Shown one piece after another: positions 13,853 to 35,368 of a stretch of DNA of 64,000 nt. The notes beneath the pieces are model-generated. The model was not told the origin of the DNA and did no database searches. It was given only the letters and a program-made list of their open reading frames with translations. Both the position numbers and the translations under genes were made by a program. Source of the stretch: Kordiimonas sp. SCSIO 12610 (GTDB lineage Bacteria > Pseudomonadota > Alphaproteobacteria > Sphingomonadales > Kordiimonadaceae); NCBI RefSeq assembly GCF_024398015.1, contig NZ_CP073747.1, positions 2,118,501 to 2,182,500 of the forward strand. The letters are read 5' to 3'. Numbering within the stretch: the first letter of the stretch is position 1; the number at the start of each line of letters is the position of its first letter.

Positions 13853-14926
13853 TCATCCGAATAGATTATTATCAAGAAAATCCTTCGGAAGTTTCTTCTC
13901 TGGCTTTCTGAAGGCCTTAGTCACTAAATGCTTTAGCAACATGAAAAACGGCATGCGTAACCAGTGACCACGAAGATAAAGCCATAATTTCGCAAAACGA
14001 CAAAAAGTTCCTTCGTCAATTCGAGCGTTCATCACTTTCGTTAAAATCATAACGGAAGCAGGTATTTTCACATCAGAGCTCACCTGCAATTGCCCAATAA
14101 CTATCCTTGCATCAGGATGATCAAAATAGCGCTCTAACATAATCAACGATACAAACAGCGCCCTTTGTGCACCAACCGTTTTAGCACGTTCGGACAATTG
14201 CTCTCTCTCATCCCTGGTTAATGCATCAAACAAATAATAGATTTCTATCAAGCTGCGGGCGGGCGTATCTAGCTCGCCGTCGTAAAACACATGATAGGAT
14301 GCATGCAAAAATCGATCAATTGGAGTGAACGTGCATAAATTCCGGCCTTCAATGTTAACTGCCGCTTTTATCATTTTTTCATGCGCAATTTGAACCCTGG
14401 CGGTTTTGGGTGTCAGTCTATGATGAACATCTATCAGTGTGCGGCGTCGTTGATGCCGCATTGGGGGAAGTTCATGCATCCATTCACGGTAATAGGCCTG
14501 ATCATAATCATTGTTTGTTGTCTCATCACCCTGCCACCCTGCTAATGTCAGTGCTTGCTCGACTAGTTCCAGCTTGTTTTCAACGACCATAATGTCCAAG
14601 TCACTGACCCTGCGCCCGTCACTGGCGCGGTGTTCTGTTACTACGTAACTTCCACCCTTCAGGAGGATGGGACATACCTCATAACCTAAAAGAGCGCGTT
14701 CAATACGGTTTGCCTCAAATTGCAGCATACGCGTATCATAGTCTGCACGAATGACAGCATTCTGAAACAACTCGAAAAGCTTTCCATCAGTTTCAGTCAT
14801 GTGCCTGTGGGCAACTTGCGCCATAATATGCTCACGTTCAGCAAAATTGATGAAGGCATAGAGCTCTTCTGCACTTTCTGGCAATTCACCAAGCCCAACA
14901 GCAATTTTCAACCAATTGCGCTTCAT
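13853..14926 (-). CDS. Nucleotidyltransferase family protein (PF14907-type), HPr-rel-A cassette
   Basis: This 357-residue protein resembles the uncharacterised nucleotidyltransferase family often found with exosortase and HprK-related genes. The nucleotidyltransferase core is visible at about residues 85-130: CPILLKGGSYVV, then RRVSDLDIMVVENKLEL, where the SDLDIMV strand supplies the metal-binding aspartates. A later IDVHHRLTPK segment corresponds to a third acidic or histidine site. The rest is helical and resembles the family's C-terminal region. Its ATG overlaps the HprK-like gene stop as ATGA, so the two are translationally coupled. The acceptor molecule is unknown. Confidence 0.75.
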   Translation of the reverse strand: MKRNWLKIAVGLGELPESAEELYAFINFAEREHIMAQVAHRHMTETDGKLFELFQNAVIRADYDTRMLQFEANRIERALLGYEVCPILLKGGSYVVTEHRASDGRRVSDLDIMVVENKLELVEQALTLAGWQGDETTNNDYDQAYYREWMHELPPMRHQRRRTLIDVHHRLTPKTARVQIAHEKMIKAAVNIEGRNLCTFTPIDRFLHASYHVFYDGELDTPARSLIEIYYLFDALTRDEREQLSERAKTVGAQRALFVSLIMLERYFDHPDARIVIGQLQVSSDVKIPASVMILTKVMNARIDEGTFCRFAKLWLYLRGHWLRMPFFMLLKHLVTKAFRKPEKKLPKDFLDNNLFG

Positions 14927-15828
14927 AGGCCCATGTCCGTAGAAATTTCGCCAAACAATCTAAGCGCATCTTCGCTTGAGCCATACACCATCTCATAGGC
15001 TTCCGCCGTTGATGACAGGTCATTAAGCGCAGTGAAGGCCTTTTCTCCAATCACCTGATAATTCGTAGAGCTTGCTAAAAGCCGCATAACCGTGTCTGCA
15101 TTTTTGACTTTTGTGAGTGTTGCCACCGCGCCTTTCTCGAATTTCGGGAACAGAACCAGCTTTGCTGAGGCATGTATATTGCTATTTTCAATATCGTTTG
15201 GACGTGCGCGCCGATAGGCAACATCCCCTTTTGGTCCATCTTTAATAATATCACTGATCCAGTCATCGCCAGCGATTTCACGAACGACCTCTATCGACTC
15301 ATTCTTTAACGAAACAGGTCTTGGGTAAGGCCTTAGCTTTACTGTTTCCAGATCAACAATACCAAACTCGTCAGAAAGTAATCGAAACCCCTTTTCCATC
15401 AAAAGCGACGTTAGGGTGCTTTTGCCGCCGCCCGAGGCTGCGGAAATAATTACACTGCCCTTTGAATTCGCAACAACACCTGCATGGAGAATAAGATATC
15501 GATATGTCCGCAGTGCAACTGAAATATTCAGTCCCATTTCAAATGCAAGGGCTGCCATTTTTTCCGGTAACGGCACCGCAGGAAACTGAAATCCGGGATC
15601 AGGGACGATTTGTTGTTTTATCAAACCTCGAAGAACATTGGGGGCACGGATATCAAGATAATGATCATGTAACTGCGACCCATGATCTGCAAATTTATAA
15701 TCGCGGTACATATCATGAAGATGATCAAGAACAATCGATGACTGTGCTTTCAACCGTGCAGAAAAATCGCCGATATGCAGCAGCAATTCACCCTTTTTAA
15801 TATGCTCTTTAATTTCGTGACTGTTCAT
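14923..15828 (-). CDS. HprK-related kinase A
   Basis: This protein of about 301 residues has a C-terminal HPr-kinase-like domain and an N-terminal region unlike that of true HprK. The P-loop ISAASGGGKSTLTSLL (K136) and the downstream LLSDEFGIVD (D154, E155) correspond to the ATP-binding and Asp motifs of HprK. The segment YLILHAGVVANSKGSVII precedes the P-loop, as in this kinase family. The start is taken as the ATG at 15828, which overlaps the PqqD-like stop as ATGA; a GTG at 15834 is also in frame. True HprK phosphorylates Ser46 of HPr, and no HPr gene is in the window, so the substrate here is probably different. Confidence 0.78.
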   Translation of the reverse strand: MNSHEIKEHIKKGELLLHIGDFSARLKAQSSIVLDHLHDMYRDYKFADHGSQLHDHYLDIRAPNVLRGLIKQQIVPDPGFQFPAVPLPEKMAALAFEMGLNISVALRTYRYLILHAGVVANSKGSVIISAASGGGKSTLTSLLMEKGFRLLSDEFGIVDLETVKLRPYPRPVSLKNESIEVVREIAGDDWISDIIKDGPKGDVAYRRARPNDIENSNIHASAKLVLFPKFEKGAVATLTKVKNADTVMRLLASSTNYQVIGEKAFTALNDLSSTAEAYEMVYGSSEDALRLFGEISTDMGL

Positions 15829-16142
15829 GCGCACTTATAGCTATGGTCAAGTGGGCTAATCAAGCCGACATTATCCATATCATTCAATGTATGATCTATC
15901 AGCGACAGTGGGCAATCTTCTTCCGTCAGGTCCAGAGCTCGCCAAACTGTTTGCGCCAACTCTGATGACTTGAGAGGGGTATCGCAAAGAATTTCAAAAA
16001 TTTCATAGGAAAGGAAATTAAGAATATGGGTTTCACCCGACACCCGGTGGTAAACATACCAAGTCTCATCATAGGGTCGAACGAGGCAACATGATTTATC
16101 TGCTGTCCAGACAGTATTTTGATTACCTGGTCCCGCAAGCAT
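15825..16142 (-). CDS. PqqD-family protein of the HPr-rel-A system
   Basis: This 105-residue protein has a PqqD-like fold, the winged-helix-like domain that binds leader peptides in RiPP pathways. The sequence DETWYVYHRVSGETHILNFL (about residues 27-46) and the following YEIFEILCDTPLKSSELAQ match the PqqD_rel signature of two strands followed by helices. The gene starts 5 bp after the stop of the secreted-protein gene and overlaps the kinase gene, which suggests one operon. PqqD relatives usually present a substrate peptide to an enzyme. That role is inferred here. Confidence 0.72.
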   Translation of the reverse strand: MLAGPGNQNTVWTADKSCCLVRPYDETWYVYHRVSGETHILNFLSYEIFEILCDTPLKSSELAQTVWRALDLTEEDCPLSLIDHTLNDMDNVGLISPLDHSYKCA

Positions 16143-16147
16143 TTAAT

Positions 16148-16699
16148 TTATGGCTGATTGACAAAATCAAGAATGGACACAAGGCATGACACGCCTGGGA
16201 AACCACTGTTTGCCCCGCCCTGGTCTGCAAACCGTGCAGCAAGAACCAGATAAAGCCCAGTATCACCAGATACATTGAACTGACCCGTTGAATCTACAAA
16301 CTGGCCAGGTTCAAAGGTCGTATTATTATCAAAGCGATAAATAACATACTGGCAATCCAAAGTTACATTTGGACCATTGCCATTATCATCGCATTCGCGT
16401 GGGCGATATTGCGCTGGTACTGTACCCTCTGGGAACACATAATCTGCCCGGCGTTGAATTCTGCGGACCCGGCCATTAGTGACGCGGTTATTACGAATAT
16501 TAACGCGGTCGGTAACCCAGGCTGCCCCGTCTGAGTTCACCAGAATAACCAGCCCGCGTGGGATAGTTATTGTACAGTCCAAGGCAGAATTTGCAACAGA
16601 CTGCGCCGATGCGCGCAGACTTAGCATCATTGGCATGCCGGCAACGCCTAACTGTAAAACGCGGCGGCGCTCCTTCAGGCGACGTTCTTCCTCAGACAT
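16148..16699 (-). CDS. Secreted four-cysteine protein with Arg-rich (Tat-like) signal, first gene of the kinase cassette
   Basis: I do not recognise this family. From the ATG at 16699 the protein has 183 residues. It begins with an arginine-rich N-region ending ERRRVLQLGVAG, a hydrophobic stretch and an RASAQS cleavage-like site, resembling a Tat or Sec signal peptide. The mature part is beta-rich and has four cysteines in LDCTI, RECDD, LDCQY and VSCLV, which could form two disulfides. The frame is open upstream to a TTG at 16744 with a distant AAAGG. Directly followed by the PqqD-like and HprK-like genes, it is a candidate substrate of that system. Confidence 0.6.
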   Translation of the reverse strand: MSEEERRLKERRRVLQLGVAGMPMMLSLRASAQSVANSALDCTITIPRGLVILVNSDGAAWVTDRVNIRNNRVTNGRVRRIQRRADYVFPEGTVPAQYRPRECDDNGNGPNVTLDCQYVIYRFDNNTTFEPGQFVDSTGQFNVSGDTGLYLVLAARFADQGGANSGFPGVSCLVSILDFVNQP

Positions 16700-16994: not shown

Positions 16995-18347
16995 ATGGCG
17001 ACAACTCTTGCAAAAATTCGCGAAAAAATCAGTGCCCGCCTTGCGCTTGTTTTTATCGTAATCGTAATGGCGCTATTGTGGTTTTTTAATCATATTGATC
17101 TTTTCGCAACTGTAATTCTTAGCTTGAGCGCGGCCTTTATTCTGTTTCAAATGGAAGTGAAATATCGCCGCAGAACATTAAAAAAGAAAAGAAAAACAGC
17201 GCAAAACGATCGACGCATAGAACAAGAAGGCATTATGTCCTTGAGGACGCATGCCCTAAACGGTTTACCCTCACCAACTCTATTGATTGATCACAAAAGG
17301 CGCATATTGTTCGCCAATGACAGTGCGAAAGAATTACTAGATGACGAATTGAACGGCAAAGACATATCACTGTTTCTTCGCCAGCCTAAGTTCATTGATG
17401 CCATTACCAAAGCCTTGAACGGCGAAGTTGATACAGAAAATGATAGTTTCATCCGCTATACATCAAACAGCGAAAGAAGTTTTGATGTAACAATCGCCCC
17501 TATCAAACCGGACAACAGTACGGAAAATCATCAGGCAACGATTTTCTTTTATGAAGTTACAAGCCTTCTGAAAACTGAGCAAATGCGGGTTGATTTTGTC
17601 GCAAACGCAAGCCATGAACTCAGAACGCCATTGACGTCCCTTATGGGTTTCATCGAAACACTGCAAGGCCCAGCCAAAGAAGATTTAGACGCACACCATA
17701 GGTTCCTCGGCATCATGCAAAAAGAAGCTGACCGGATGGTGCTTTTGGTTGATGATCTATTATCCTTATCAAGAATTGAAATGGCACGCTACCAGGCGCC
17801 GGAAACGCCCGCTAAGGTAGAATTGATCATTGGCAATGCTCTTGATTCTATTGAAAAACTGGCAGAAAAACGCGGAATTACTTTGCGTACAGAATTTGAG
17901 GCAGATCTACCTCTGGCTATTTTAGATACCGGCCAGATCACTCAGGTTCTTCTAAACCTTTTGACCAATGCAGCAAAATACGCAGATCAGGACAGTACGG
18001 TTCATATTGTTGCCCAACGAAACAACGGCAATCATATAGAAATTATTGTCCGCGATGAGGGCCCTGGCATCCCACCAGAACACCTTGCGCGACTGACCGA
18101 AAGGTTTTACCGAGTAGATACAGCCCGCTCGAGAGAAATGGGCGGAACAGGCCTTGGTCTTGCAATTGTGAAGCACATATTGCTGCGCCATAATAGTCAA
18201 CTCAACATTCGAAGCACAGTCGGTGAAGGAACAAGCTTCAGTTTCCGCCTTCAAATAGCAGAGCCAGATAGTAATGGTACAGATCAAAAAAGCAGCGCCA
18301 TTACCGAAGATAGCAACGCAGTAAGCGCTGAAAACAGGAATGATTAA
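16995..18347 (+). CDS. phoR: Phosphate regulon sensor histidine kinase PhoR
   Basis: This 450-residue membrane kinase has two N-terminal transmembrane segments (about 15-50), a PAS domain (about 88-180: LPSPTLLIDHKRRILFANDS), a HisKA domain with the phospho-accepting H207 in NASHELRTPLTSLMGFIETL, and an HATPase_c domain. The ATPase domain has N-box LLNLLTNAAKYA, G1 VRDEGPGIP and G2 GGTGLGLAIVKHIL. The VANASHELRTPL box and PhoB downstream identify PhoR, which phosphorylates PhoB when phosphate is scarce. The gene is first in a phoR-pstS-phoB order. The short loop between the two transmembrane segments leaves no large periplasmic sensor, as is usual for PhoR. Confidence 0.93.
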   Translation: MATTLAKIREKISARLALVFIVIVMALLWFFNHIDLFATVILSLSAAFILFQMEVKYRRRTLKKKRKTAQNDRRIEQEGIMSLRTHALNGLPSPTLLIDHKRRILFANDSAKELLDDELNGKDISLFLRQPKFIDAITKALNGEVDTENDSFIRYTSNSERSFDVTIAPIKPDNSTENHQATIFFYEVTSLLKTEQMRVDFVANASHELRTPLTSLMGFIETLQGPAKEDLDAHHRFLGIMQKEADRMVLLVDDLLSLSRIEMARYQAPETPAKVELIIGNALDSIEKLAEKRGITLRTEFEADLPLAILDTGQITQVLLNLLTNAAKYADQDSTVHIVAQRNNGNHIEIIVRDEGPGIPPEHLARLTERFYRVDTARSREMGGTGLGLAIVKHILLRHNSQLNIRSTVGEGTSFSFRLQIAEPDSNGTDQKSSAITEDSNAVSAENRND

Positions 18348-20327: not shown

Positions 20328-22226
20328 TCAGGATACTTGAAGCCTCATAAGCGAGCGCTCCAGAATTAAAAGAGACCACAGTATTTGCTGATGGTCTTTT
20401 TTCTTTGCCAAATGTTCTGACACATAAGTTTCAACTACACTAAGGTCTATCAACCCTGTTGCTTTCAAGACATCACTTGTTGCTAGATCTTTCACTTCTG
20501 CCAGCAAGTCAGTTCTCAGCAAATCTGCGACGGGAAGAACAAAACCCTGTTTTGGTCTTTTAAAAATGTCCGCAATTCCAAGCCTGTCCAGAACCCCACG
20601 TAATGGCGCCTTACCCTTACCTTTGTTGAAAAACGAATGGCTCTTTTGCCCCAGTGTCCATTCAACAAATTCATGATCGAGAAAAGGGACTCTGGCTTCC
20701 AACGAACAGGCCATACTGGCGCGGTCTAGCTTGGTCAGGATATCACCAGGTAAATAGGTTAGAAGATCAATCATCTGAACCCGCCGAAAAGGATCATCAA
20801 TATTCACTTGATCCGTAATTTTTTGAAACGTTTGAACCGGATGGTAGCCATTCAATGCGGTTTTCATCGCTGGTGTATAGAGGCCTAACCGATCACGATC
20901 TGCGCATTTACTAACGCTGTTGAAATAGGCCTCAATATCGGTTTTGGCCAAACTTTCAAATGTTGATTTCGCGCGAAGAAAACGCGGCCAACGATCGAGT
21001 TTTGGATACACGCGTCCCAAGAAACCAAATACGGGCCGCCGTAACCAAAGTGGGATTAATCGTCTACTTTGCTCTTCCAGTAAGTGCATCCTGTAGCGCC
21101 TATAACCGCCGAGCAATTCGTCAGCGCCGTCACCAGACAAGGAAACCGTAACCTTTTCCCGAGCAAGCTTACTGACATCATAGGTGGGCGCAGCAGAGTG
21201 GTCAGCAAATGGTTCTCCGAAATGGTCGATGATTTTATCGAGGACATCACCATGAAGGGAATTGATGGTTTTAACCTCGTGCTTCAGACCAAAATGCTTG
21301 GCTATATCGCGGGCATGGTTCGCTTCATCAAATCGGGGATCATTCGAACCGATTGTACTTGCCTTGATTGGTTTCGTGCTATTTGCGCTCATTACACCTA
21401 CGATAATGGACGAATCTACACCGCCAGATAAAAATGCCCCAAGCGGAACATCGGCAATCATTCGCCTTTTTACAGCACGCTCAATTCGCTCAAAGATACC
21501 AGTATTCGATTTTGTTCCTTCTTTTAAGAAATCAACAGGGTTCCAATATCTTTCTATCCGAACTTCTTTGGACTGTTTACTAAAGACCAGGCTGTGCCCG
21601 GGTAATAGCTTGCTTGTGCCTTCAATGATTGTTTTTGGGTCAGGCACATATCCAAGTGCCAAATAGTCTTCCAGTGCGTCAGGGCGAATATCTCGGGTAA
21701 TTCCCTGATGGCACAGTAACGCATTAAACTCGGATGCGAACACAAAACTCTTCGAACCATTATCGCCGTCAACTTCAGCGTAATAAAAGGGTTTGATACC
21801 GAGCCTATCCCGTGCTGCAAAAAGGGATTGCTCTTCTGTGTCCCAAACTACAAAGGCAAACATACCGTTCAATTTATGGAGGCACTCCCTACCCCATTCG
21901 ATATAGGCATATAAGAGAACTTCTGTATCTGATTGGGTTTTAAAGACGTAACCACAATCTATAAGGTCTTCCCGCAGGTTTTGATGGTTATAAATCTCAC
22001 CATTAAAAATAATCACATATCTACCGGACGCATCCAGCATTGGTTGCTGACCCGCTTCGACATCAATCACTGAAAGCCGCCTATGTCCCAATGTTGAAAA
22101 TTTATCCTGATAGAAACCTTCGCCGTCCGGCCCTCGGTGCGTAAGCGCATCCGCCATCGCTTTTACGGTCTTATGGTCTGACGATTGTACCCCAGATAAA
22201 TTTATTATGCCCGCTATGCCACACAT
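20328..22226 (-). CDS. XrtA-system amidotransferase 1 (asparagine-synthase-like)
   Basis: This 632-residue glutamine-hydrolysing asparagine synthase homologue is of the subfamily found with exosortase A loci. It has the N-terminal nucleophile C2 in MCGIAGIINLSG, the glutaminase motif HRGPDGEG, and the synthetase P-loop-like SGGVDSSIIVGVMSA. Further matches are SLSGDGADELLGGYRRY and the C-terminal LEARVPFLDHEFVEW. Members are thought to amidate sugar-acid residues of the exopolysaccharide. Its ATG shares one base with the epsI stop (TGATG), so it is translationally coupled and is the last gene of the minus-strand exosortase operon. Confidence 0.9.
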   Translation of the reverse strand: MCGIAGIINLSGVQSSDHKTVKAMADALTHRGPDGEGFYQDKFSTLGHRRLSVIDVEAGQQPMLDASGRYVIIFNGEIYNHQNLREDLIDCGYVFKTQSDTEVLLYAYIEWGRECLHKLNGMFAFVVWDTEEQSLFAARDRLGIKPFYYAEVDGDNGSKSFVFASEFNALLCHQGITRDIRPDALEDYLALGYVPDPKTIIEGTSKLLPGHSLVFSKQSKEVRIERYWNPVDFLKEGTKSNTGIFERIERAVKRRMIADVPLGAFLSGGVDSSIIVGVMSANSTKPIKASTIGSNDPRFDEANHARDIAKHFGLKHEVKTINSLHGDVLDKIIDHFGEPFADHSAAPTYDVSKLAREKVTVSLSGDGADELLGGYRRYRMHLLEEQSRRLIPLWLRRPVFGFLGRVYPKLDRWPRFLRAKSTFESLAKTDIEAYFNSVSKCADRDRLGLYTPAMKTALNGYHPVQTFQKITDQVNIDDPFRRVQMIDLLTYLPGDILTKLDRASMACSLEARVPFLDHEFVEWTLGQKSHSFFNKGKGKAPLRGVLDRLGIADIFKRPKQGFVLPVADLLRTDLLAEVKDLATSDVLKATGLIDLSVVETYVSEHLAKKKDHQQILWSLLILERSLMRLQVS

Positions 22227-22939
22227 CAGAAAGCCCCCTCAGCGTGATCAATATTAACTTCAGCGAGGTAACGCGTCAGAACCGAGCGCGCGTACTCGGT
22301 ATTATCGTCAATTTTTGTCGCAGCAACAATAACTGACGCTGGCGCTTTGCCTATACCTAGTCGTGCAATCGCACTATATAGCTTTACCTGCCAATCGCTG
22401 TTTCCAGGCCACTTCCCACCAATTTCATAACTATAAAATACCAGCAAGCGTTCATCGCCGCGCCATAAGGTTTTCTCATCATATTGAACATCTCCAATCT
22501 GATGTTTCACCTCGTTATTTGATGGGATTAACTGCCAACCATCCACCAAATATGTATCATAATAACCAAGTAGGCTTTTACTACCCGATTGATCGCTGTA
22601 TCCACCCTTGAAAGCAAATATGAAATCAGCGCCCCGGCGCAGTGTTGCTGATTGCATATCATCTAACTCAAAAAATTTTGGTACATATGTAATGGTGGAA
22701 TTTTCAAGCTGACGATAACCACAATCGTCACAAATTAATGATGATAGTTGAATTTCAGCCTTTGGGGCTTCATCAACCTTTGACGTATATAGTCCTGAAA
22801 CTATTGGTAAAAAAACGAATATAATCACAAGGTAAGCAAAGCCTTGCTTCTTTTGGTCATCCGGTAAATTACCAACATTTTCTCGCCCCGTCTTTTGCGC
22901 TCGTAGGTCAATATCCGAAAACCGATATGCAATCGGCAA
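22226..22939 (-). CDS. epsI: EpsI-type exosortase-associated protein (frame-shifted from xrtA)
   Basis: This 237-residue EpsI-domain protein has one membrane segment (FAYLVIIFVFLPIVSGL, about residues 34-50) and then a soluble periplasmic beta domain with WRGDERLLVFYSYEIGGKWP and ARSVLTRYLAEVN, usual for exosortase-associated EpsI. The only start before the membrane segment is a TTG at 22939 inside the xrtA coding region, with no ribosome site. In many proteobacteria EpsI is fused to the C-terminus of XrtA. Here the frames are offset by +1 with a 32-bp overlap, so this may be the C-terminal half of a broken or recoded fusion. Confidence 0.8.
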   Translation of the reverse strand: MPIAYRFSDIDLRAQKTGRENVGNLPDDQKKQGFAYLVIIFVFLPIVSGLYTSKVDEAPKAEIQLSSLICDDCGYRQLENSTITYVPKFFELDDMQSATLRRGADFIFAFKGGYSDQSGSKSLLGYYDTYLVDGWQLIPSNNEVKHQIGDVQYDEKTLWRGDERLLVFYSYEIGGKWPGNSDWQVKLYSAIARLGIGKAPASVIVAATKIDDNTEYARSVLTRYLAEVNIDHAEGAF

Positions 22940-23720
22940 TCAGGATAACCAGAACAACCGAGAGAAACCCCCAACCATAAACAATATGATCGACGTCTTT
23001 TGCGAAAGATTGATCTGTATTTTCAGCGATCAATAGGATTGTAAGAACACGGACAATATTCGCAGCAACCGGCACAATCATAGATGCGATAAGAATAGCA
23101 ATTCTACGCCAAACACTTTCAAACACCAAATGGCTCAAAAGTACACCTGTCACCAAACTCGTGAAGAAAAACCGCACCCCTGCACAGGCTTGCGCCACCT
23201 CATAAAGGCCGCTGGACAGTGTTATCAACACACCTTCGGCTTGATATTCAATACCCAGCAAATTCAGTGACGCAATCACCATTTCTGCTGTTATCAATTG
23301 TAACGGCGTAACAATCGACTGCCCAAACGGGATCATCAAGAAAAGAAACAGGCTCGGGAATAAAATCGCTTTATAAAATCTGACCCCAAACGCAGAAATT
23401 ATAATTCCCTGAAGTGCAAGAACGAGGGCAATATGCTCAAAAAGCCTAACTTCCGCTGCAGTTCCCATCAACCAAAGGATGGTAGCTACCATAAGAACTA
23501 CACATCCCCACAATGAATAGCCCACAGGTATCTTTTTAAGGCTAGTCCTTCTGCTCCAGATCAAAGCCGCAGATATGAAGGGTACAAACAGGCCGTGTGA
23601 AAAAGTATCGACAGTCCATATAATATGGAAAAGGTGCCCAAGGCTATCAAACCAGCCAATGCAAAGCGCAATCACACCCAGCATAAATAGCAGATAATGC
23701 TTTTGCGGGCCTTTCATCAT
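22908..23720 (-). CDS. xrtA: Exosortase A
   Basis: This 270-residue inner-membrane cysteine protease/transpeptidase has about eight hydrophobic helices. It is predicted to cleave PEP-CTERM sorting signals of exported proteins. The three catalytic residues of the family can be placed: C179 in VAQACAGVRFF, R224 in PVAANIVRVL and H245 in DVDHIVYGWGF. The start overlaps the upstream glycosyltransferase stop (ATGA at 23720). The protein ends shortly after the last helix with ISVFGY. A matching PEP-CTERM substrate is encoded at 40786-42873. See the epsI entry for the reading-frame break at its 3' end. Confidence 0.93.
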   Translation of the reverse strand: MMKGPQKHYLLFMLGVIALCIGWFDSLGHLFHIIWTVDTFSHGLFVPFISAALIWSRRTSLKKIPVGYSLWGCVVLMVATILWLMGTAAEVRLFEHIALVLALQGIIISAFGVRFYKAILFPSLFLFLMIPFGQSIVTPLQLITAEMVIASLNLLGIEYQAEGVLITLSSGLYEVAQACAGVRFFFTSLVTGVLLSHLVFESVWRRIAILIASMIVPVAANIVRVLTILLIAENTDQSFAKDVDHIVYGWGFLSVVLVILIADCISVFGY

Positions 23721-24937
23721 GCAGGTTCTTTCAAAAGGTTTGAAATAGTTTTATCGAGCTTCGCAAAGGTTCGGACCCAAGCAAATTCCGCTTCAACAAA
23801 ATTACGCGCATTTTTGCCAATTCTCTGTGCCTTCTCCGTGTACTCAATAAATTCAAGAACCGCGTCAGCATAAGCGTGTTCATCGTCAGCAATAATAATC
23901 GTATTTTCAGATATCGCTTCAATGCCTTCGTTAGCAAGGGTGGTTGCAACAACGGCTTTTCCCATCGCCATGCCCTCTAAAACCTTATTTTGTATCCCGC
24001 GGGCCGTTCGCAGAGGAGCAACAATCACATCAGCCTTCGCAATCTCTTGGGCCATATCTTCCACGTAGCCCGTAACATGTATATTTGACTGACTGCCAAG
24101 TTTCTTAACTTCGGATGCAACCGGGCCGCCAGCAATCCGGAAAATAGCCTCGCTGTATTTCTCTAAAACATACGGCCAGATACTGCTCGCAAACCATAAT
24201 ACGGCATCAACATTTGGCTTGTAATCCATTGCACCTGTGAACAGCACAACAGGCGTATCAGCACTTTTGGCTTCCTTATAGTTTTCGGGATCAAATTTCT
24301 CTAAGTCCACACCATTTGTGAGAGCATCAACTTTATCCTCAAGACTATCATTGGTTAGCCTATTGAATAATGCCGCCTCTGCTGAACTTACGAAAAATGT
24401 CTTCCATGATTTCTTTGCAGCGTGTTCTTCATAGCGTAACAATGTTTTTGCTTCACGGTGATAAAGTGCTGATAAGGGAAAAATGCTTGTGCGTGCATAG
24501 TCAGCCCATTTGGCAGAGTCCACATCAACCAAATCAACAACATAGGGGATATCAAACTCCAATGCGCTATCAACAAACTCCATCATCGCGCCTGAGAAAA
24601 CATAGATAAGATCAATTTCCTGAGTAATACACAGTTCGCGTACATATGCCTTCATCTTGGCTTGTGGGTAGGCCACAACTGACTGAGGTTTACCTGTTAC
24701 AAATCCACGAAGTGATCTTAAAAGCTGACCCGGTTTAGAGACCAGTTCAAAATGCATACTGGCTGCATGCTCGTCCAAAAAGGATGTGTGAACCATATCC
24801 TTTTTATCATCAATGAAATACCCCAAATGTACCGTATGGGATTTCAAAAGATGCTCGAGAATATGCCATGACCTGATTTTATCCCCCTTATTGGGGGGAT
24901 AGGGAATTCTGTGCGCCAGGAATAGAATATTTGCCAT
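23717..24937 (-). CDS. XrtA/PEP-CTERM-associated sugar transferase (GT4-like, TIGR03087 type)
   Basis: This 406-residue glycosyltransferase has two Rossmann halves. The N-terminal signature FLAHRIPYPPNKGDKIRSWH identifies the exosortase-associated sugar transferase family. The donor-binding C-terminal half contains VLFTGAMDYKPNVDAVLWFA and the EX7E-like region VIVAPLRTARGIQNKVLEGMAM. It probably adds a sugar to the lipid-linked repeat unit at the cytoplasmic face of the inner membrane. Start and stop are packed against femAB and xrtA in the same operon. Confidence 0.88.
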   Translation of the reverse strand: MANILFLAHRIPYPPNKGDKIRSWHILEHLLKSHTVHLGYFIDDKKDMVHTSFLDEHAASMHFELVSKPGQLLRSLRGFVTGKPQSVVAYPQAKMKAYVRELCITQEIDLIYVFSGAMMEFVDSALEFDIPYVVDLVDVDSAKWADYARTSIFPLSALYHREAKTLLRYEEHAAKKSWKTFFVSSAEAALFNRLTNDSLEDKVDALTNGVDLEKFDPENYKEAKSADTPVVLFTGAMDYKPNVDAVLWFASSIWPYVLEKYSEAIFRIAGGPVASEVKKLGSQSNIHVTGYVEDMAQEIAKADVIVAPLRTARGIQNKVLEGMAMGKAVVATTLANEGIEAISENTIIIADDEHAYADAVLEFIEYTEKAQRIGKNARNFVEAEFAWVRTFAKLDKTISNLLKEPA

Positions 24938-24940
24938 AGC

Positions 24941-25996
24941 TTACCCCAAATGCCGCGAAATATACGGACCAATTAGGTTCGCGAGGCCAAGTGGCAGTTT
25001 TTTCCAAAGGTTACTCATCAGTCCGTATTTACTATTACCGGCAGACAAGTCAGGAAGTTTCGCATCACCAAGCAATAGATATTCATACTCAAGCGGTGTG
25101 GGTTCAAAACCCCAATTTTTTTTGAATTTATAGGGCCCGCTATCAATTTTAGAACGCCCGAAATCGAACAATGTTTTACCGCGCTCTAACGCACGTTCCA
25201 TTGTATGCCAATACATAAAATCATGTGCGCCAAATGTGCGATGCCCTTCTGCTGATCCCGCGTAATATGGTAAAACGCTGTTCCGTCCGTAGAAATTCAA
25301 CAAGCTAGCAATAGCAGTATTTTCATTGTTTCGCACAATCAACATTTCAGAACTCGTGCCGAAAATATCTAAAATCACTTCAAATAATTTCTTGGGGAAA
25401 ACAGGCGTTCCTAATCGGTGAACACTGCTAGCATAAAGCGCATAAAACACATCAAGGTCGTTCGTTTCCTCAAGCGTTAATCCAGCAGACAAAGCTTTCC
25501 TGACGACCGCACGCTGCTTGCGCGGGATCGCGAGCATTCTTTGTTCCTTATCTGTCACTATCGGCTTTACAAATGTCGCGGATTTTCCCCTGTCAATCTG
25601 CCACCCCGCTGCTGCATATTGTTCCCCGTCATGCCGTGCACGCTGGTTTCTATATTCGATCACATCAATGCCCATGCGTTTTGCGATATCTGTCGCTGCT
25701 GCATCCAATGTATCATAATGCGCCTGATCATAAGCCAGCGGACCACCATAAACAGCAAACATCGATGACGTTACTGCCTTTCCAAAGAGCAAACTGTTCC
25801 TAATCGTTAGCGGCAAAACGCCAAAAACCTCGCCTGCCTTTTCCGCAATCAGATAGATGCATTTATGCCCTGCCCCTTTTTCGACCACATGCCGCCAATC
25901 ATAATTATGAAAAAAGGTGGCATCAGGGTGGTCAGCCACAAACGCATCCCATCCCGCTTTATCACGGTCATTTGCTTCACGAACAGATACTGTCAT
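24941..25996 (-). CDS. FemAB-family XrtA/PEP-CTERM-associated protein
   Basis: This 351-residue protein of the GNAT-like FemAB fold has two tandem acyltransferase domains (ATFFHNYDWRHVVEKGAGHKC at the start, GAHDFMYWHTMERALERGKTLFDFGRSKIDSGPYKFKKNWG near the end, broken here by position rather than by motif). FemAB proteins transfer aminoacyl groups from tRNA, and the exosortase-linked subgroup is thought to modify the polysaccharide or its anchor. It overlaps the upstream deacetylase gene by 4 bp (ATGA) and lies 3 bp before the sugar transferase gene. The exact substrate is unknown. Confidence 0.87.
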   Translation of the reverse strand: MTVSVREANDRDKAGWDAFVADHPDATFFHNYDWRHVVEKGAGHKCIYLIAEKAGEVFGVLPLTIRNSLLFGKAVTSSMFAVYGGPLAYDQAHYDTLDAAATDIAKRMGIDVIEYRNQRARHDGEQYAAAGWQIDRGKSATFVKPIVTDKEQRMLAIPRKQRAVVRKALSAGLTLEETNDLDVFYALYASSVHRLGTPVFPKKLFEVILDIFGTSSEMLIVRNNENTAIASLLNFYGRNSVLPYYAGSAEGHRTFGAHDFMYWHTMERALERGKTLFDFGRSKIDSGPYKFKKNWGFEPTPLEYEYLLLGDAKLPDLSAGNSKYGLMSNLWKKLPLGLANLIGPYISRHLG

Positions 25997-26916
25997 GGCT
26001 TATTCCCATACTGATCTGTCACTGGACGGTAAATCACATCCTCCATGGTGCCCCATTCATAGTCTCTAAGGAGCTTATGAAGTTTTTGCACCATACTATT
26101 TTGACCGACATGATGCCGGAAACGAGATTTAAAGGGCGCCTGTTTTATTGTTGGTTGATCCGGGTCATATTCCCAAGGGTGCGTATAAAACACGCCGGGT
26201 GTCGCTTGTTGGTTAGCACCTTTTCTGAAGAGCCGATTCCCCAAAAAATATGGCAATAAACGGAAATACCCACCACCGGATACTGGGAGTGTTTTACCCA
26301 TAAGTTTATATGTCGTCATTGGAATTTCGAGTATATCCAACCCGGCGTTTGGGAAAAAGGGCCGCTTGGGTGCTGCCGGCATCCCATAATGATCATGTTC
26401 AACTGGATATATACTCGAAGAATATGAGAAACCCATTTCAGCAAGGTCTTCATAAACCCACCATACATTCTCTGATAACGAAAAACTGGGTGCACGGTAG
26501 CCTATGACCGATTTGCCAGAGATATCCTCAAGAATTGATTTTGCTTTGTGGGTATCGCGCTTAAATGCGTCGCTTGATAAGTTAAATAGTCTTTTATGAT
26601 CAAGGCCATGACAAGCAAGTTCATGCCCCGATAAGGCAATTTTTTTAATGATATCAGGGTGCCGTGCCCCCACATATCCAAGCGTAAAAAAAGTGGCCTT
26701 TACGTTATAGGCACTCAGAATATCCAAGAGTAGAGAGACCTGATATTCGACCCTGCTTTCTTTATCTGCCCATTCGTTTTCATGAATTACAGCCTCATAC
26801 GCACCAACCTGAAACCATTCTTCAACATCAATCGACAAAACATGACGATGATCATAGACAATATCATCGGCTATTTCTTGAATAGACGTTTCAATTAATG
26901 GCGCGTCATTGTTCAT
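25993..26916 (-). CDS. XrtA-system polysaccharide deacetylase
   Basis: This NodB-fold carbohydrate esterase has motif 1 LSIDVEEWFQVGAYE, with the catalytic-base and metal aspartate, a metal-binding motif 2 in GHELACHGLDHKRLF, and motif 3 IGYRAPSFSLSE. The C-terminal motifs are seen in DILEIPMTTY and VFYTHPWEYDPDQP, the second with the histidine. It would remove acetyl groups from the exopolysaccharide. I start it at the ATG at 26916 (307 residues), where a GAGG lies 7 nt upstream and the overlap with the ATPase gene is 11 bp; the frame is open to 26979. Confidence 0.9.
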   Translation of the reverse strand: MNNDAPLIETSIQEIADDIVYDHRHVLSIDVEEWFQVGAYEAVIHENEWADKESRVEYQVSLLLDILSAYNVKATFFTLGYVGARHPDIIKKIALSGHELACHGLDHKRLFNLSSDAFKRDTHKAKSILEDISGKSVIGYRAPSFSLSENVWWVYEDLAEMGFSYSSSIYPVEHDHYGMPAAPKRPFFPNAGLDILEIPMTTYKLMGKTLPVSGGGYFRLLPYFLGNRLFRKGANQQATPGVFYTHPWEYDPDQPTIKQAPFKSRFRHHVGQNSMVQKLHKLLRDYEWGTMEDVIYRPVTDQYGNKP

Positions 26917-27910
26917 CTGGCGCCTCGGTGCGCGAATTTTGATCAACAAGTCTTTCAACAATTTTGGTAAGTTGGCCAATCATTTGATGTTGTTGCGTAA
27001 TGATTGTCTCTAACTGATCCAAACGTCCACTAGATTGCCCCTCTGGCAAGTCAACAGTTTGCGTTTCATGACTTGAGGAACTTTGCGTTTCTTCGAAATC
27101 TGTATCGCTACTCATATCAGCGATAACAGCGCGTACAGTTTCACCCGAAATTTCATGCAATTCTTCAAGAGCACCAAAAAGCATAACCCGTGAACACAGG
27201 GTATTCAGTTTGCGCGGTACGCCTGCCGCATAGTCATAAATGGCCGCCACAGCATCAACCGTAAAACCCGGATCTCCCTTCCAGCCGACAAGGGATAATC
27301 TATGTTCAAGATAGTCAGCCAATTCTTCTTTTTCCATTGGCCCCAAATGGTGGGTTGCGATCACACGTTGACGAAGTTGCTCAAGTTCTGGCGAACCAAA
27401 AATAATATCCCGAAATTCAGGCTGACCAACAAGGAAGCTTTGCAGCAATGCATTGTCACCTTCCTGAAAATTTGAAAGCATTCGCATTTCTTCAAGTGCA
27501 GAAATTGATAAATTCTGGGCCTCGTCAACAACAAGTAGAACCCGCTTGCCATTTTTATAATTGTCCCGAAGAAAACGCTCTATCCTGAGCAATAGATGCC
27601 CTTTATCACCCTCAGCACTCAACCCAAATGCAGAGGCCACACCGCGCAACAAACCAATACCACCAAGCTGCGTACTGACAAGCATTGCAGCTACATATTC
27701 GTCGCGGTCCAGCGTATTGAAAAGGTGCCTTAGAAGCGTTGTTTTCCCTGTACCGATATCGCCAGTGACAACAATAAACCCTTCGCCCTGATGAAGGCCA
27801 TAGGTTAAGTAAGCCATCGCTTTTTTGTGTGTACGCGAACTAAAATAAAATTTAGGGTCCGGCGTTAACTGGAAAGGTCGCGCGTTTAAATTATAAAATT
27901 TCTCGTACAT
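26906..27910 (-). CDS. XrtA-associated secretion-type ATPase
   Basis: This 334-residue AAA ATPase resembles ExeA/GspA-type ATPases. The N-terminal FYNLNARPFQLTPDPKFYF is characteristic of the PEP-CTERM locus subfamily. It has Walker A VVTGDIGTGKTTLLRHLF (residues about 47-64), Walker B VLLVVDEAQNLS and a sensor region in LRQRVIATHHLGPM. A charged coiled-coil tail (about 270-334) with many Gln and Ser residues follows. It likely energises or regulates assembly or secretion of the exopolysaccharide. It lies 5 bp after the outer-membrane barrel gene stop and overlaps the deacetylase gene. Confidence 0.9.
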   Translation of the reverse strand: MYEKFYNLNARPFQLTPDPKFYFSSRTHKKAMAYLTYGLHQGEGFIVVTGDIGTGKTTLLRHLFNTLDRDEYVAAMLVSTQLGGIGLLRGVASAFGLSAEGDKGHLLLRIERFLRDNYKNGKRVLLVVDEAQNLSISALEEMRMLSNFQEGDNALLQSFLVGQPEFRDIIFGSPELEQLRQRVIATHHLGPMEKEELADYLEHRLSLVGWKGDPGFTVDAVAAIYDYAAGVPRKLNTLCSRVMLFGALEELHEISGETVRAVIADMSSDTDFEETQSSSSHETQTVDLPEGQSSGRLDQLETIITQQHQMIGQLTKIVERLVDQNSRTEAPDEQ

Positions 27911-27915
27911 GCGCG

Positions 27916-29427
27916 TTAGAACGTCCCTCTGATGAAAGCAGAAACCGCGTTTTCCCGAATATCTTGCCCTGCTTCGTTTGATAACCTGTCAGAGTAATTA
28001 TAAGATACAGAAAGATTAATATGTCGTGAAAGGCGGCGCGTCCAAGAAACCGATCCTAAAATAAAATTATCAACACGCGCGGAATTTTCAAACTCTGTAC
28101 GGCGGTAACTGGCCGCCACCCGAAGGGTTGTCTTGCGATCAAGGTTACGATCATACCCAACAGAACCGCCCAAGGTTCTTGCTGTACCGGTATTATTATC
28201 AAAGGTTCGCCACTCAGCATCGCCAGTAACAAACAATGTTGTCCGTTTTCTGAACCATTCCAAGCGCACACGGCCGAAACGTCTGCGAAAATCAACATCA
28301 GACAAGGTAAAGCTGGGATCAATATTATTCAGCGTACGCCCATTACCGTCAACAATACCGAATTGATTGTTAAAATTAAAGGTGTCCAGATTGTCGTTCA
28401 AAATCAGGCTGTTTGTTGATAATTCGTCAGTATAGCTCGCTTCAATATTCACCCTTTTACTAAGGCGATGAAAGAAACTACCAGATACTGTTGTCCGTTC
28501 ACCGTCCTTACCCGCACGCGCAGTAAGCGTTAATCGGTCGCTTGGTGTCCACAGGAAACCAGAGTTCCAGAAAAAACCGTCATTATCCAATAAGAATATA
28601 TTGAAATCGTTATTTGAAACACCGGCCGATCCAACGAGGGCAAACTCACGCGTTAGCTTATAGGTCAGGTCAACGCCAGCACGGTCGTCCCGAAAACTTC
28701 CGGCTTCGTCGATTGATCTTGAAACCCGCCGAGCATTTGCAAACAATTGCCACCGTAGATTACTAAATCGGTCGCCAGAGTCTACCAGTGCCGTCACTTC
28801 ATGCGAAACAGAGTCAGAGAAGAAAGTGCTGAGGTTTTCATTATCCAGGTCATCAGCGGGGCTAAATGTTAACCCCAACTCATAACCGATTGACCAATTG
28901 GCAACATTGTTAAATCGGCCCTGAAGACGCGCTTCCCCCGTATAGGTTTGCACGACTTGTCGGTTCGCACTTCTGTTCGCAATATTACCCGAAAATCCTT
29001 CTTCACGGTCAAGGAACGTTTCCTGAATAGTCGCCCGCCCTGACAGGAAAAAATGATCCCTGACCACCTCGGCATTCGCCAAACCAAAGAGATTGTGTCG
29101 AATATCAGTATCGCCATCGTTCAGGAACCAAAGAAAATCTGCTGAATAATCAAGGGAGCCCTCGAAACGGCGGCCATTACCGCGAAGGTTAATACCCGGT
29201 GAGGCACGAAGTACTAAATCGCTAACCCGATCATTTTCCTGAAGGTTTACATTATCAGAGAAGGTTGCACCAACTTCAAGGCGGGGTTCAATCGCATAAT
29301 CCTGCTGACGTTTCGTATCATCGTCATCTTGCGACCATACAGATTGAGACGCACCAAGACAGGCAAGCAAAACACAGCTTTGCTTCAGATAGCTAGAGAA
29401 TCGGCAATTCCTGCTTTCCTTCTGCAC
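27916..29427 (-). CDS. PEP-CTERM/XrtA-system outer-membrane beta-barrel protein (TIGR03016 type)
   Basis: This 503-residue protein has a signal peptide (SCVLLACLGASQSVWSQ, cleavage after WSQ) and a repetitive pattern of alternating hydrophobic/polar strands ending in phenylalanine (ENAVSAFIRGTF), as in outer-membrane barrels. Segments such as LRASPGINLRGNGRRFEGSL and VSYNYSDRLSNEAGQ match the exosortase-associated barrel family, which may act as a polysaccharide secretin or export channel. The start is a GTG at 29427, 3 bp after the tyrosine-kinase gene stop, with no strong ribosome site, so it probably relies on coupling. Confidence 0.87.
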   Translation of the reverse strand: MQKESRNCRFSSYLKQSCVLLACLGASQSVWSQDDDDTKRQQDYAIEPRLEVGATFSDNVNLQENDRVSDLVLRASPGINLRGNGRRFEGSLDYSADFLWFLNDGDTDIRHNLFGLANAEVVRDHFFLSGRATIQETFLDREEGFSGNIANRSANRQVVQTYTGEARLQGRFNNVANWSIGYELGLTFSPADDLDNENLSTFFSDSVSHEVTALVDSGDRFSNLRWQLFANARRVSRSIDEAGSFRDDRAGVDLTYKLTREFALVGSAGVSNNDFNIFLLDNDGFFWNSGFLWTPSDRLTLTARAGKDGERTTVSGSFFHRLSKRVNIEASYTDELSTNSLILNDNLDTFNFNNQFGIVDGNGRTLNNIDPSFTLSDVDFRRRFGRVRLEWFRKRTTLFVTGDAEWRTFDNNTGTARTLGGSVGYDRNLDRKTTLRVAASYRRTEFENSARVDNFILGSVSWTRRLSRHINLSVSYNYSDRLSNEAGQDIRENAVSAFIRGTF

Positions 29428-29430
29428 GGG

Positions 29431-30483
29431 TTATCTACCACCATATCCATAGTAGGACGCGAATTTTTTATTGCTGCCGCTATAATGGGTTTTATTCAAA
29501 ACCAGATTAATGTTTTCACAAGCACTGATCATATTCAGGCTCTCTTTAATCTGTGGTTCTGTTGTTTTCTCAGCTTCAATTACGAATACGGTTTGTCCCA
29601 TATAAAGCGCTAACACTGACGCGGCGGAGCTTGCGAGAACCGGCGGACTATCAAAAATAATGATCCGATCATTATACCGGCTGGATAACTCATTCACCAT
29701 TTTTTCCATGCGGTCACTGGCAAGAAGTTCTGTCGTTAAGTTGTGTTGGCGCCCCGCTGGTAGAAGCACAAGATTTGGAATACTGGTTCTTACCAAGCAG
29801 TCACCAAGGTCTACTTCCTTGTCAGCAACTGCATCCATAAGCCCTTTTCCGCCGGCAACCCCTAACCTGTTCAACACTTCAGGTTTGGAGAAATCAGCAT
29901 CAACCAAAAGAACTGTAACATCCTGTTCGGTTGCAATCGATAGTGCCAAATTAATCGCCGAGAAGGTTTTTCCTTCACCAGGGCTTGAACTGGTCACAAG
30001 AACAATATTGCTATTTTTCTTGTCCTCGTTTCCTTTTGCAAAAGCGTTTAACAAAATGCTGCGCTTAATAATCCTGAATTCTTCCGACATTAGGTTGGGT
30101 GGCATATCAGGTGTGATAAAACCAGCGTCCCTTAGGGCCAGAAGGTCGATATCTTGCGCCTTTGATTTTGCCTGATCGTTAGAACTCTTTTGAGGATCAG
30201 CTTCGGCCTTTTGGGCAGTTTTGTCTTTGGTTACTGCATCATTATCGACATCAGATGCATCATCAGCATTTTCATCAGGCTGCGGTGAAACTTGCTGAGC
30301 GTTTTTGGCACCTGACCCACTTAAACCACGAAACGATGATAAATCGTCATTTGTATTTGCATCTGTCGATAAAGCACTAGGGTCTGGCTTCTCGCTAACC
30401 TGTTTGAGAGACGATGGTTTCTCCAGGTTTTCTGCTGCACGTTCAAGGAGTGATGCTTTCTTTTCTTCTCGCTTATCAGTCAT
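29431..30483 (-). CDS. XrtA-associated tyrosine autokinase
   Basis: This 350-residue BY-kinase catalytic protein has a Ser/Asp/Lys-rich acidic N-terminal half (about 1-120), then Walker A in SSPGEGKTFSAINLALSIA, Walker A' in VLLVDADFSKPEV and Walker B in RIIIFDSPPVLA. The C-terminal tail is short and rich in Tyr and Gly, ending YYGYGGR, which would be the autophosphorylation cluster. With the separate Wzz-like protein upstream it forms the usual BY-kinase pair that controls chain length and export of the exopolysaccharide. The ATG at 30483 has GGGGA 6 nt upstream. Confidence 0.92.
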   Translation of the reverse strand: MTDKREEKKASLLERAAENLEKPSSLKQVSEKPDPSALSTDANTNDDLSSFRGLSGSGAKNAQQVSPQPDENADDASDVDNDAVTKDKTAQKAEADPQKSSNDQAKSKAQDIDLLALRDAGFITPDMPPNLMSEEFRIIKRSILLNAFAKGNEDKKNSNIVLVTSSSPGEGKTFSAINLALSIATEQDVTVLLVDADFSKPEVLNRLGVAGGKGLMDAVADKEVDLGDCLVRTSIPNLVLLPAGRQHNLTTELLASDRMEKMVNELSSRYNDRIIIFDSPPVLASSAASVLALYMGQTVFVIEAEKTTEPQIKESLNMISACENINLVLNKTHYSGSNKKFASYYGYGGR

Positions 30484-30496
30484 GAATGATCCCCAC

Positions 30497-32125
30497 TTAT
30501 CCTAAACTCGGACCGCCGAGAAAATCGAATGCCAAAAGAGCCGCAAAAGTTCCAAACAAGAGCAAACTCGTCCCGACGAAGAAAACCAGTTCAATACTAC
30601 GTTTGCGATTTTCCTCATCACTAAGCGTTTTTGTGACATTGCCTAACACTGGCAAATCAAATTGTGCACGCAATTGTTCAACAGTGATAATCACTGGCCT
30701 CAACTGCGACATCATGAAGGCGACACCAATACCCGCAACGATACCGCCCAAAAGACTACCCACCATATAAAGAAGCCTTGGCGGGCCGCTTGGCCTCGAT
30801 GGGCGTGTTGGTTCTTCAACAACGTTTAAGGCAACCGCATCACCAGAGTTTTCAACACCACGGCGGATTTCCAAATCCTGCTGCTGATTGACAAATTCAT
30901 TATACTGTTGACGAATAGAATTATAATCACGGCTTAAGCGTTGTTCTTCCGCTTCAATTTCCGGCACACGTTTCGCTTTTTCTTCCATTTGTGCGATCAA
31001 TTCGCTTTGATCATCCCGGCGTTTTTCCAAGGCAGCGATCTCTGTTTTCTTGGTAATTAACTCAAGGCTTAGGCTTTCATAAAGCTTATTGGGGACTTCA
31101 ATGGTCAAATTGGATTTCGCACCTGTTTCAGCAGTATTTTTCAATTCTTCTTCAACCGCACGGCGCTGTTCTTCGTATTGCTCTTTCAAGGTAGATATCT
31201 GACGCGTCACATTTACAACATCAGGGTGACGGTCAGTATAGCCAATCGACTTATAATCATCATATCGCTTCTCAAGCTCAGCAATACGTTCTTCAAGCGG
31301 GTCGCGTGCCGCACTGTTGCCGCCATTTCTCGCGGAAATTGGTTCACGCAACGTTGGGGGAACGCTGCTTCTTTGTTCATCCAACGCGTCAATCGTCGCA
31401 TTCAATTCTGAAATCGCATTCAAAGTCAGCTTTAAATTATTTTTACTGTCTTCCAACCTCGAAAGGAAACTTCCCTGACCACCCAAAAATTCAAGATTGT
31501 CTTGTTTGAAGGCTGCATGTCGACGCTCGGATTCTTCAAGTCGTTTTTGATATTCCTCGACCCTTTCGGCGATAAAGCCCTCCGCACTTGCTGTCTGCAA
31601 AAGGCCCTCTTCCGAATTCCGTTCAAGGAAATAAGAAACCAAGTTCACAACAACCAACCGTGCAACATCAGCCCGCTCACGGTCATTCAATCGTGGCTCA
31701 TCGATCTCAAACTGGATACGGAACAAACCACCTTCCAAAGAGCTCACCCTAATGTTTTGACGCAAGTAAGCGATTAACTCGTCTTTCTCGACTTCCGTTG
31801 TCGCCAACTTTTCCAAACTGAGGATACGTTGAATAATTTTCTCAAGGTTGTTGCGCGTAACCAAGGTTCTGCGAACGACATCAACTTGTCTCGTAACATC
31901 AACATCAATTCCCAGATTGCGCGCAATTGAAGGCAATAGTGTTTCTGCGTCAACAAAAATACGTGCATAAGATTGGTACTTATATGGCATCGCGAGCACA
32001 ATCGCCCAACCTAGCAAGCAAATGATCCATGCAGTCACTAACATCCACCAACGCTTACGCCAAATGCCGTAGGCAGCGGCTGTTAATCGCTGTGTTAATT
32101 CATGTATGCCAAGGGAAGTTGCCAT
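30497..32125 (-). CDS. XrtA-system polysaccharide chain-length determinant (Wzz-like)
   Basis: This 542-residue inner-membrane protein has two transmembrane anchors, one near residue 30 (WWMLVTAWIICLLGWAIVLA) and one near the C-terminus (ELVFFVGTSLLLFGTFAALL), and a third weaker segment near 450. Between them lies a long periplasmic coiled coil (about 170-420) rich in Glu, Gln and Lys. The YKYQSYARIFVDAETLLPS segment after the first helix is typical of the PEP-CTERM chain-length family. It works with the tyrosine kinase downstream and the export lipoprotein upstream to build the polymer export machine. Confidence 0.92.
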   Translation of the reverse strand: MATSLGIHELTQRLTAAAYGIWRKRWWMLVTAWIICLLGWAIVLAMPYKYQSYARIFVDAETLLPSIARNLGIDVDVTRQVDVVRRTLVTRNNLEKIIQRILSLEKLATTEVEKDELIAYLRQNIRVSSLEGGLFRIQFEIDEPRLNDRERADVARLVVVNLVSYFLERNSEEGLLQTASAEGFIAERVEEYQKRLEESERRHAAFKQDNLEFLGGQGSFLSRLEDSKNNLKLTLNAISELNATIDALDEQRSSVPPTLREPISARNGGNSAARDPLEERIAELEKRYDDYKSIGYTDRHPDVVNVTRQISTLKEQYEEQRRAVEEELKNTAETGAKSNLTIEVPNKLYESLSLELITKKTEIAALEKRRDDQSELIAQMEEKAKRVPEIEAEEQRLSRDYNSIRQQYNEFVNQQQDLEIRRGVENSGDAVALNVVEEPTRPSRPSGPPRLLYMVGSLLGGIVAGIGVAFMMSQLRPVIITVEQLRAQFDLPVLGNVTKTLSDEENRKRSIELVFFVGTSLLLFGTFAALLAFDFLGGPSLG

Positions 32126-32163
32126 TATTCTACACTATCACCAAATCAACAAAACTGTTGGGT

Positions 32164-32823: not shown

Positions 32824-33016
32824 CTAATCCTCCAATTTCACCGCCCGGATGAAACTCTTTTATTCGTTACAATAAACTCATAAAATCTAATATAAATAAA
32901 AACTTGATACTAATTTATTAACAAAATTACATACAATTTTAATCAATATAAGACACTTTACAACTAACAATCTTCAGATCGTTATTCAGTGACCTATATG
33001 ACTGCTAAACGCTGCG

Positions 33017-33154: not shown

Positions 33155-33179
33155 ACTCTAACTCTTGGCTCCTTTATTA

Positions 33180-34172: not shown

Positions 34173-34173
34173 T

Positions 34174-35358: not shown

Positions 35359-35368
35359 TTCTAATGCA

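Follow-up and report, generated by a model that had tools for sequence, protein, structure and literature searches.

An exported protein family regularly encoded with HPr-rel-A enzymes in Pseudomonadota, and likely modified by them

A 64,000-nucleotide stretch of the genome of Kordiimonas sp. SCSIO 12610 (NZ_CP073747.1, positions 2,118,501 to 2,182,500; this whole stretch is called the window below) carries four minus-strand genes that form one operon encoding, in this order, an exported protein, a PqqD-like protein, an HprK-like kinase and a PF14907 nucleotidyltransferase. The exported protein was given the name LDR in this analysis. The PqqD-like protein and the kinase are components of the 'HPr-rel-A system' in NCBIfam (both score above the curated cut-offs), and our strongest claim is that LDR is a regular partner of HPr-rel-A enzymes: an LDR gene occupies the same-strand slot upstream in 139 out of 148 distinct HprK_rel_A loci of Pseudomonadota. 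LDR is likely to be the substrate of these enzymes as well. We think it fairly probable that the cassette is a dedicated post-translational modification unit, similar to those of ribosomally synthesized and post-translationally modified peptides (RiPPs), in which one exported protein family is tagged before export.

LDR is a regular partner of HPr-rel-A enzymes

All loci were chosen on the kinase, which is therefore present in every one. As a lone query against named genomes the window kinase gave no match; an alignment query gave 571 relatives, and among the best 80 of these the nearest named record is an uncultured Kordiimonas with a 66% identical kinase (the genome of the window itself was possibly omitted). 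The kinase model TIGR04352 is matched above its cut-off in 29 out of 41 relatives, 11 out of 385 genomes of a class sample and 61 out of 398 genomes of a phylum sample. We read loci from all 31 relatives scoring above 187 bits, a set that includes the window and two genomes under the cut-off, from all 11 class-sample genomes above the cut-off (nine of them new) and from 40 out of 58 new phylum-sample genomes. This gave 159 loci plus the window, 148 of them with distinct kinases (i.e. differing over the last 200 kinase residues).

Counted anywhere in the locus, PqqD genes are present in 134 of the 148 loci and nucleotidyltransferase genes in 140. The arrangement is tight: LDR ends within 150 bases of the start of the PqqD open reading frame (ORF) in 121 of the 129 loci holding both, and the nucleotidyltransferase gene overlaps the kinase gene or lies within 60 bases of its end in 133 of 140 loci. 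As the LDR profile was built iteratively on the same loci, the position of its matches serves as a control: the upstream same-strand slot takes 143 out of 145 LDR matches, while it holds 1,207 of the 15,235 ORFs in the 148 loci, so the association is not due to chance. A sequence-only reading of the window, which suggested a neighbourhood survey, had considered that the secreted-protein gene might rarely be adjacent to the other three in relatives; this does not occur, and the gene is their regular partner. Two of the nine loci without LDR in the slot have 26 (L225) and 601 (L243) bases of upstream sequence. An LDR-like ORF lies outside the slot on the opposite strand in L164, and a short one (794-1021) lies downstream of the nucleotidyltransferase, not upstream of PqqD, in L121. 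Tandem LDR pairs are found in four loci (L092, L105, L107 and L117).

Layout of the cassette

The sequence-only reading had described four genes packed in the same direction with two ATGA-overlapping pairs, and a four-cysteine exported protein; both descriptions hold (Table 1), the cysteines of LDR being C42, C103, C116 and C172. An in-frame ATG of the kinase at 15828 produces the ATGA overlap with the PqqD gene, and a second ATGA joins the kinase and nucleotidyltransferase genes. The LDR stop is separated from the PqqD gene by a 5-base gap, and an alternative LDR start is possible (TTG at 16744). The Pfam scan assigned no family to the PqqD-like protein, and no protease or cyclase was found among the four cassette proteins by Pfam and NCBIfam scans.

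Table 1. Features of the cassette and its surroundings in the window
Feature	Coordinates	Strand	Remarks
LDR, exported, RR-type leader, likely substrate	16148..16699	-	183 amino acids (a.a.), four cysteines
LDR leader core, residues 11-33	16601..16669	-	conserved; proposed PqqD docking site and twin-arginine translocation (Tat)-type signal
LDR C-terminal motif PGVSCLVS, residues 168-175	16175..16198	-	proposed acceptor region
PqqD-like peptide chaperone	15825..16142	-	105 a.a.; TIGR04353 49.3 bits, cut-off 35
HprK-related kinase A	14923..15834	-	303 a.a., GTG start; TIGR04352 240.4 bits, cut-off 200
PF14907 nucleotidyltransferase	13853..14926	-	357 a.a.; PF14907 117.9 bits, cut-off 31.2
PhoR-like histidine kinase	16995..18347	+	divergent from LDR; recurrent neighbour, outside cassette
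XrtA/PEP-CTERM-type amidotransferase (AsnB-like)	20328..22226	-	TIGR03108 best match, 757.5 bits, under cut-off 816.9
EpsI-type protein	22226..22939	-	TIGR02914 39.4 bits, under cut-off 42.8
Exosortase A (XrtA)	22908..23720	-	TIGR03109 252.9 bits, cut-off 208
Rest of XrtA polysaccharide locus	23717..39630	-	ten genes over NCBIfam cut-offs
Secreted protein, presumably with PEP-CTERM-like tail	40786..42873	+	tail read by eye; follows XrtA locus

The LDR family

Neither Pfam nor NCBIfam has a family that the window LDR matches at E 1, and 62 diverse LDR members gave only scattered weak matches against the family libraries. Among 22 Kordiimonadales-type LDR sequences (the window's family), the mean pairwise identity is 69% in the leader, 61% in the C-terminal motif and 36% in the body; R12 and P23 of the leader are invariant, and so are C42, P168, G169, S171, C172 and S175. 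This clade has retained the RR-type leader and a C-terminal PGxSCxxS while the body drifted, and many of its members have aspartate-rich inserts. Outside the window clade, LDR bodies are of several types: by regular expression, 71 out of 141 LDRs have an [ST]Cxx[ST] motif in their last 40 residues and 37 have an AAxLN-type motif (one LDR has both, and 34 match neither expression). Most LDR ORFs encode about 120-300 a.a., and R11 and R12 are each at least 90% conserved in the 62 members. LDR has no PEP-CTERM sorting tail; the C-terminus of the window LDR is SCLVSILDFVNQP. Its structural model has a moderately confident fold (mean predicted local distance difference test score, pLDDT, of 79), with low values in the leader. 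The model has no match in PDB at E 0.001 or better; a further comparison by VIA-align had coverage mainly of residues 1-42, so that the mature part was barely probed.

A second LDR gene, away from the cassette, is found in seven out of 41 relatives searched (L272-L278), with leader and motif kept. No PqqD, kinase or nucleotidyltransferase match lies within the 16 kb read at these seven loci, and orphans that keep leader and motif without a cassette are what one would expect if the leader is an address. The gene beside six of the seven paralogs encodes what we take to be a sigma factor. The window's own genome has only one LDR gene.

The kinase and the nucleotidyltransferase

The catalytic motifs of both enzymes are intact. 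H117, the GxGKST loop, D155 and E156 of the kinase are kept in 99-100% of 147 other loci, and the kinase core aligns with the solved HPr kinases 2qmh and 1jb1. The match to the canonical HPr kinase/phosphorylase model (TIGR00679) reaches 12.2 bits (cut-off 240), and the same genome encodes a separate 150-residue canonical HprK next to HPr, EIIA-man and RapZ. The cassette kinase is therefore not the canonical HPr kinase of this genome, and judging from these sequences it is unlikely to act only on a distant HPr, a possibility that the sequence-only reading had raised.

For the nucleotidyltransferase, K90, G91, R105, D109, D111 and D166 are kept in 99-100% of 139 other loci. Its sequence has no PDB match at E 1 (nor has the PqqD profile against PDB sequences at E 0.01). 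Its structural model (pLDDT 92) matches MenT1 (E 1.9e-4, the sole match below 0.001) and ANT(2'')-Ia (E 1.1e-3), so on the predicted structure the PF14907 protein is a Pol-beta-type nucleotidyltransferase.

Kinship with lasso-peptide tailoring enzymes

The parallel with lasso-peptide tailoring that the sequence-only reading had drawn holds up, since lasso-type clusters contain relatives of the kinase, PqqD and PF14907 genes. Three such loci come from sampled Alphaproteobacteria (L252, L254 and L264; 16 proteins scanned); an HprK-like kinase is found there with matches to lasso-type PqqD and cyclase (three members each). Another lasso-type cluster, L270, has a lasso-type PqqD (78.2 bits, just under the cut-off of 80) and a PF14907 protein (141.6 bits), together with an ABC exporter, an HprK-like kinase, a sulfotransferase and an AsnB-type gene. 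The B2 peptidase was not identified in these four loci (L264:7762-8598 has no NCBIfam match). In yet another arrangement a single gene joins PqqD to an HprK-like kinase, beside a PF14907 gene (L257:7545-8759), and L259:7349-8482 has a weak PqqD-type match within the kinase and an adjoining PF14907-type gene. Weak LDR-like ORFs (E 0.007-0.05) were observed near non-HPr-rel-A kinases in L257, L262 and L271; those at L262:7005-7208 and L271:6826-7071 are small, have a weak LDR-like leader and lie directly upstream of HprK-like kinases.

In a tree of 49 kinases (midpoint-rooted, with canonical HprK on a long branch), the HPr-rel-A, lasso-type and fusion-type kinases form three separate groups (support 96/99, 96/100 and 98/95). 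The group labels are our own; family searches back them for L252, L254, L264 and L270 (lasso-type) and for L257 and, weakly, L259 (fusion-type). A gene encoding a tetratricopeptide repeat (TPR)-sulfotransferase is inserted between kinase and nucleotidyltransferase in two loci (L135:5289-7004 and L162:5271-6968) and follows the kinase in L138 (7873-9651), where the nucleotidyltransferase was not found; these genes hint at a further tailoring step.

In the paeninodin and pseudomycoidin systems, lasso precursors are phosphorylated on their C-terminal serine by an HPr-type kinase. The attachment of one or two hexoses to this serine is ascribed to PsmN, with an alternative left standing, namely nucleotidyl transfer followed by glycosylation in the host (PMC8498205, PMC9266682). 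Binding of leader peptides is an established property of PqqD-type proteins (PMC7533575, PMC8498205).

Genomic surroundings

The AsnB-like gene some 4 kb from the cassette had been thought possibly unrelated. It is instead the first gene of an XrtA/PEP-CTERM locus (about 20.3-39.6 kb; 11 genes above NCBIfam cut-offs and two, the amidotransferase and EpsI, below). It was rejected as a lasso cyclase: NF033535 gave 221.4 bits (cut-off 525), and TIGR03108 is its best match. The genes at 23717..39630 encode stp1, FemAB, a deacetylase, an ATPase, TIGR03016, a tyrosine autokinase, a chain-length protein, an export protein, PrsT and an EpsB-type transferase; the family scan covered the locus outside two genes (33180-34172 and 34174-35358). 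The secreted protein that follows has no NCBIfam match at E 1e-5, and it also has a PPGGN-type repeat region. Porphyromonas requires an AsnB homologue for a linking sugar that is a uronamide, and PSI-BLAST linked TIGR03108 proteins to this homologue (PMC7468200).

An XrtA-type amidotransferase homologue is found near the cassette in 26 out of 148 loci; in 12 of these it lies downstream of the nucleotidyltransferase and in the same orientation. In the class sample, exosortase was found in 10 out of 11 kinase genomes versus 42 out of the 374 remaining genomes (Fisher, 9e-9), and in the phylum sample in 32 out of 61 versus 47 out of 337 (Fisher, 3e-10), p-values that overstate the association because genomes share descent. 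Among relatives the numbers are 31 out of 31 versus seven out of 10, and the samples taken together give 68 out of 98 kinase genomes. Distances were computed for 36 genomes of the window's own order: in 26 the exosortase and kinase genes are 4.7-14.5 kb apart, and in the remaining 10, all of family f5, they are separated by about 85 kb or more or lie on different contigs. A strict dependence on exosortase was rejected, since no match was found in 29 out of 61 phylum-sample and one out of 11 class-sample kinase genomes (at most six first-look candidates were scored per genome in these two samples, so some may have been missed). The genome of L249 has a second exosortase elsewhere (G000:C1:629361-630128).

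On the other side of LDR, the PhoR-like gene (PhoR and PnpS models score best but under their cut-offs) is divergent from LDR in 38 out of 148 loci. Control through a Pho box was rejected: there are six matches to the consensus in the window (4.7 expected) and none in the LDR-phoR gap (16745-16994). Sigma-54-type sites were reported upstream of PEP-CTERM genes (PMC1569441). A sigma-54 promoter upstream of LDR was also rejected, as a generic consensus (rather than the published PEP-CTERM motif 1 and 2 logos) did no better in 139 regions than antisense or shuffled controls.

A proposed modification pathway and its alternatives

We infer the chemistry, the acceptor residue, the leader binding, the Tat route and the role of LDR tagging as follows. 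In the cytoplasm the PqqD-like protein would first hold the LDR leader, a role with which the conservation of the leader agrees; the HprK-like kinase would then phosphorylate a hydroxyl of LDR, in the window clade most likely that of a serine of PGxSCxxS. The PF14907 enzyme would next attach a further group at the same phosphate or hydroxyl, either a nucleotide (going by the fold) or a sugar (going by the lasso-peptide precedent). The RR leader would export the tagged LDR, probably via Tat, and would be cleaved afterwards, and the LDR product may serve the cell surface.

Several observations weigh against a modified LDR. Not one serine or threonine is shared by the whole LDR family; the serine modified in lasso peptides is the last residue, but the candidate serine of LDR is not; and the PF14907 fold suggests nucleotidyl transfer whereas the lasso precedent is a hexose. 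Generic Tat models respond weakly (at most four out of 62 LDR members; TIGR01409 three, PF10518 one). No LDR was found in five loci (L137, L144, L157, L218 and L244) despite more than 6.8 kb of upstream sequence, and the LDR profile was derived by iteration on the very loci in which its matches were then counted.

The kinase and the nucleotidyltransferase might instead act on an intermediate (sugar or lipid) of the polysaccharide locus nearby, with LDR a separate periplasmic helper and PqqD a mere adaptor. The co-occurrence of exosortase with the kinase in the class and phylum samples, the amidotransferase genes near and downstream of the cassette, and related PF14907-kinase pairs without an LDR match at E 0.01 fit such a role, but PqqD-type proteins bind leader peptides (PMC7533575, PMC8498205), relatives of known activity modify peptides, and nine out of 10 family-f5 loci retain LDR though their exosortase is distant; we regard this explanation as unlikely. 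Alternatively, LDR could be the long precursor of a cryptic RiPP pathway that releases a small modified peptide, as its conserved leader followed by variable sequence and the enzyme families in common with lasso-type clusters would allow. The length of most LDR ORFs, the moderately confident fold of the window LDR with its clade-invariant cysteines, and the lack of a protease or cyclase among the four cassette proteins make this very unlikely. A regulatory role of the kinase in carbon or phosphate control, as an HPr(Ser) kinase with phoR as a neighbour by design, is scarcely credible: its HprK-type core and the recurrent divergent PhoR-like gene are set against the low TIGR00679 score, the canonical HprK elsewhere in the genome and Pho-box matches that are not in excess.

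A bolder extension of LDR tagging, which we consider quite unlikely, is that the cassette attaches a nucleotide or sugar through a phosphate, in the cytoplasm, to a protein exported by Tat, and that this tag is a primer that ties XrtA-type exopolysaccharide to a secreted protein or lets such a protein organise it; if true, a lasso-peptide-like tailoring module would have been turned into a protein-polysaccharide coupling system.

Relation to known systems

The sequence-only reading had spoken of a modification system not yet described, which is not wholly so, as NCBIfam names HPr-rel-A and the cassette PqqD and kinase reach the curated cut-offs of TIGR04353 and TIGR04352. The HPr-rel-A model lines name no exported partner (the curators' full notes may); the LDR family and its linkage are added here. 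In the literature searched, with subscription journals mostly outside it, we found no mention of HPr-rel-A, HprK-related kinase, TIGR04352 or PF14907, no substrate of the HPr-rel-A families and no paper combining PqqD and exosortase.

Lasso clusters with K and N genes (paeninodin and pseudomycoidin) share with the cassette a related PqqD/B1, an HprK-like kinase, a PF14907 enzyme and sometimes a sulfotransferase; the likeness is to K in L252, L254 and L264 and to K and N in L270, and to PsmK, PsmN and PadeK by description only. Unlike these clusters, the cassette has no lasso cyclase or B2 protease, the protein proposed as its substrate is larger and has an RR leader for export, and its kinase falls in a separate group of the tree. 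The PqqD-HprK fusions paired with PF14907 (fusion in L257) comprise the same three protein families, but only weak LDR-like ORFs lie near them and their kinases are again a separate group. The XrtA/PEP-CTERM protein-sorting system shares the window with the cassette, and exosortase is near the kinase in most own-order genomes measured; unlike XrtA/PEP-CTERM substrates, however, LDR lacks a PEP-CTERM tail, and sigma-54-type sites are not in excess upstream of it.

The HPr-rel-A families thereby gain a definite candidate for their substrate family and a reaction that can be tested, along with a possible acceptor motif. If the proposed modification is true, it would extend the logic of lasso-peptide tailoring to whole exported proteins, and would link the cassette to the XrtA/PEP-CTERM polysaccharide systems, which are themselves poorly understood.

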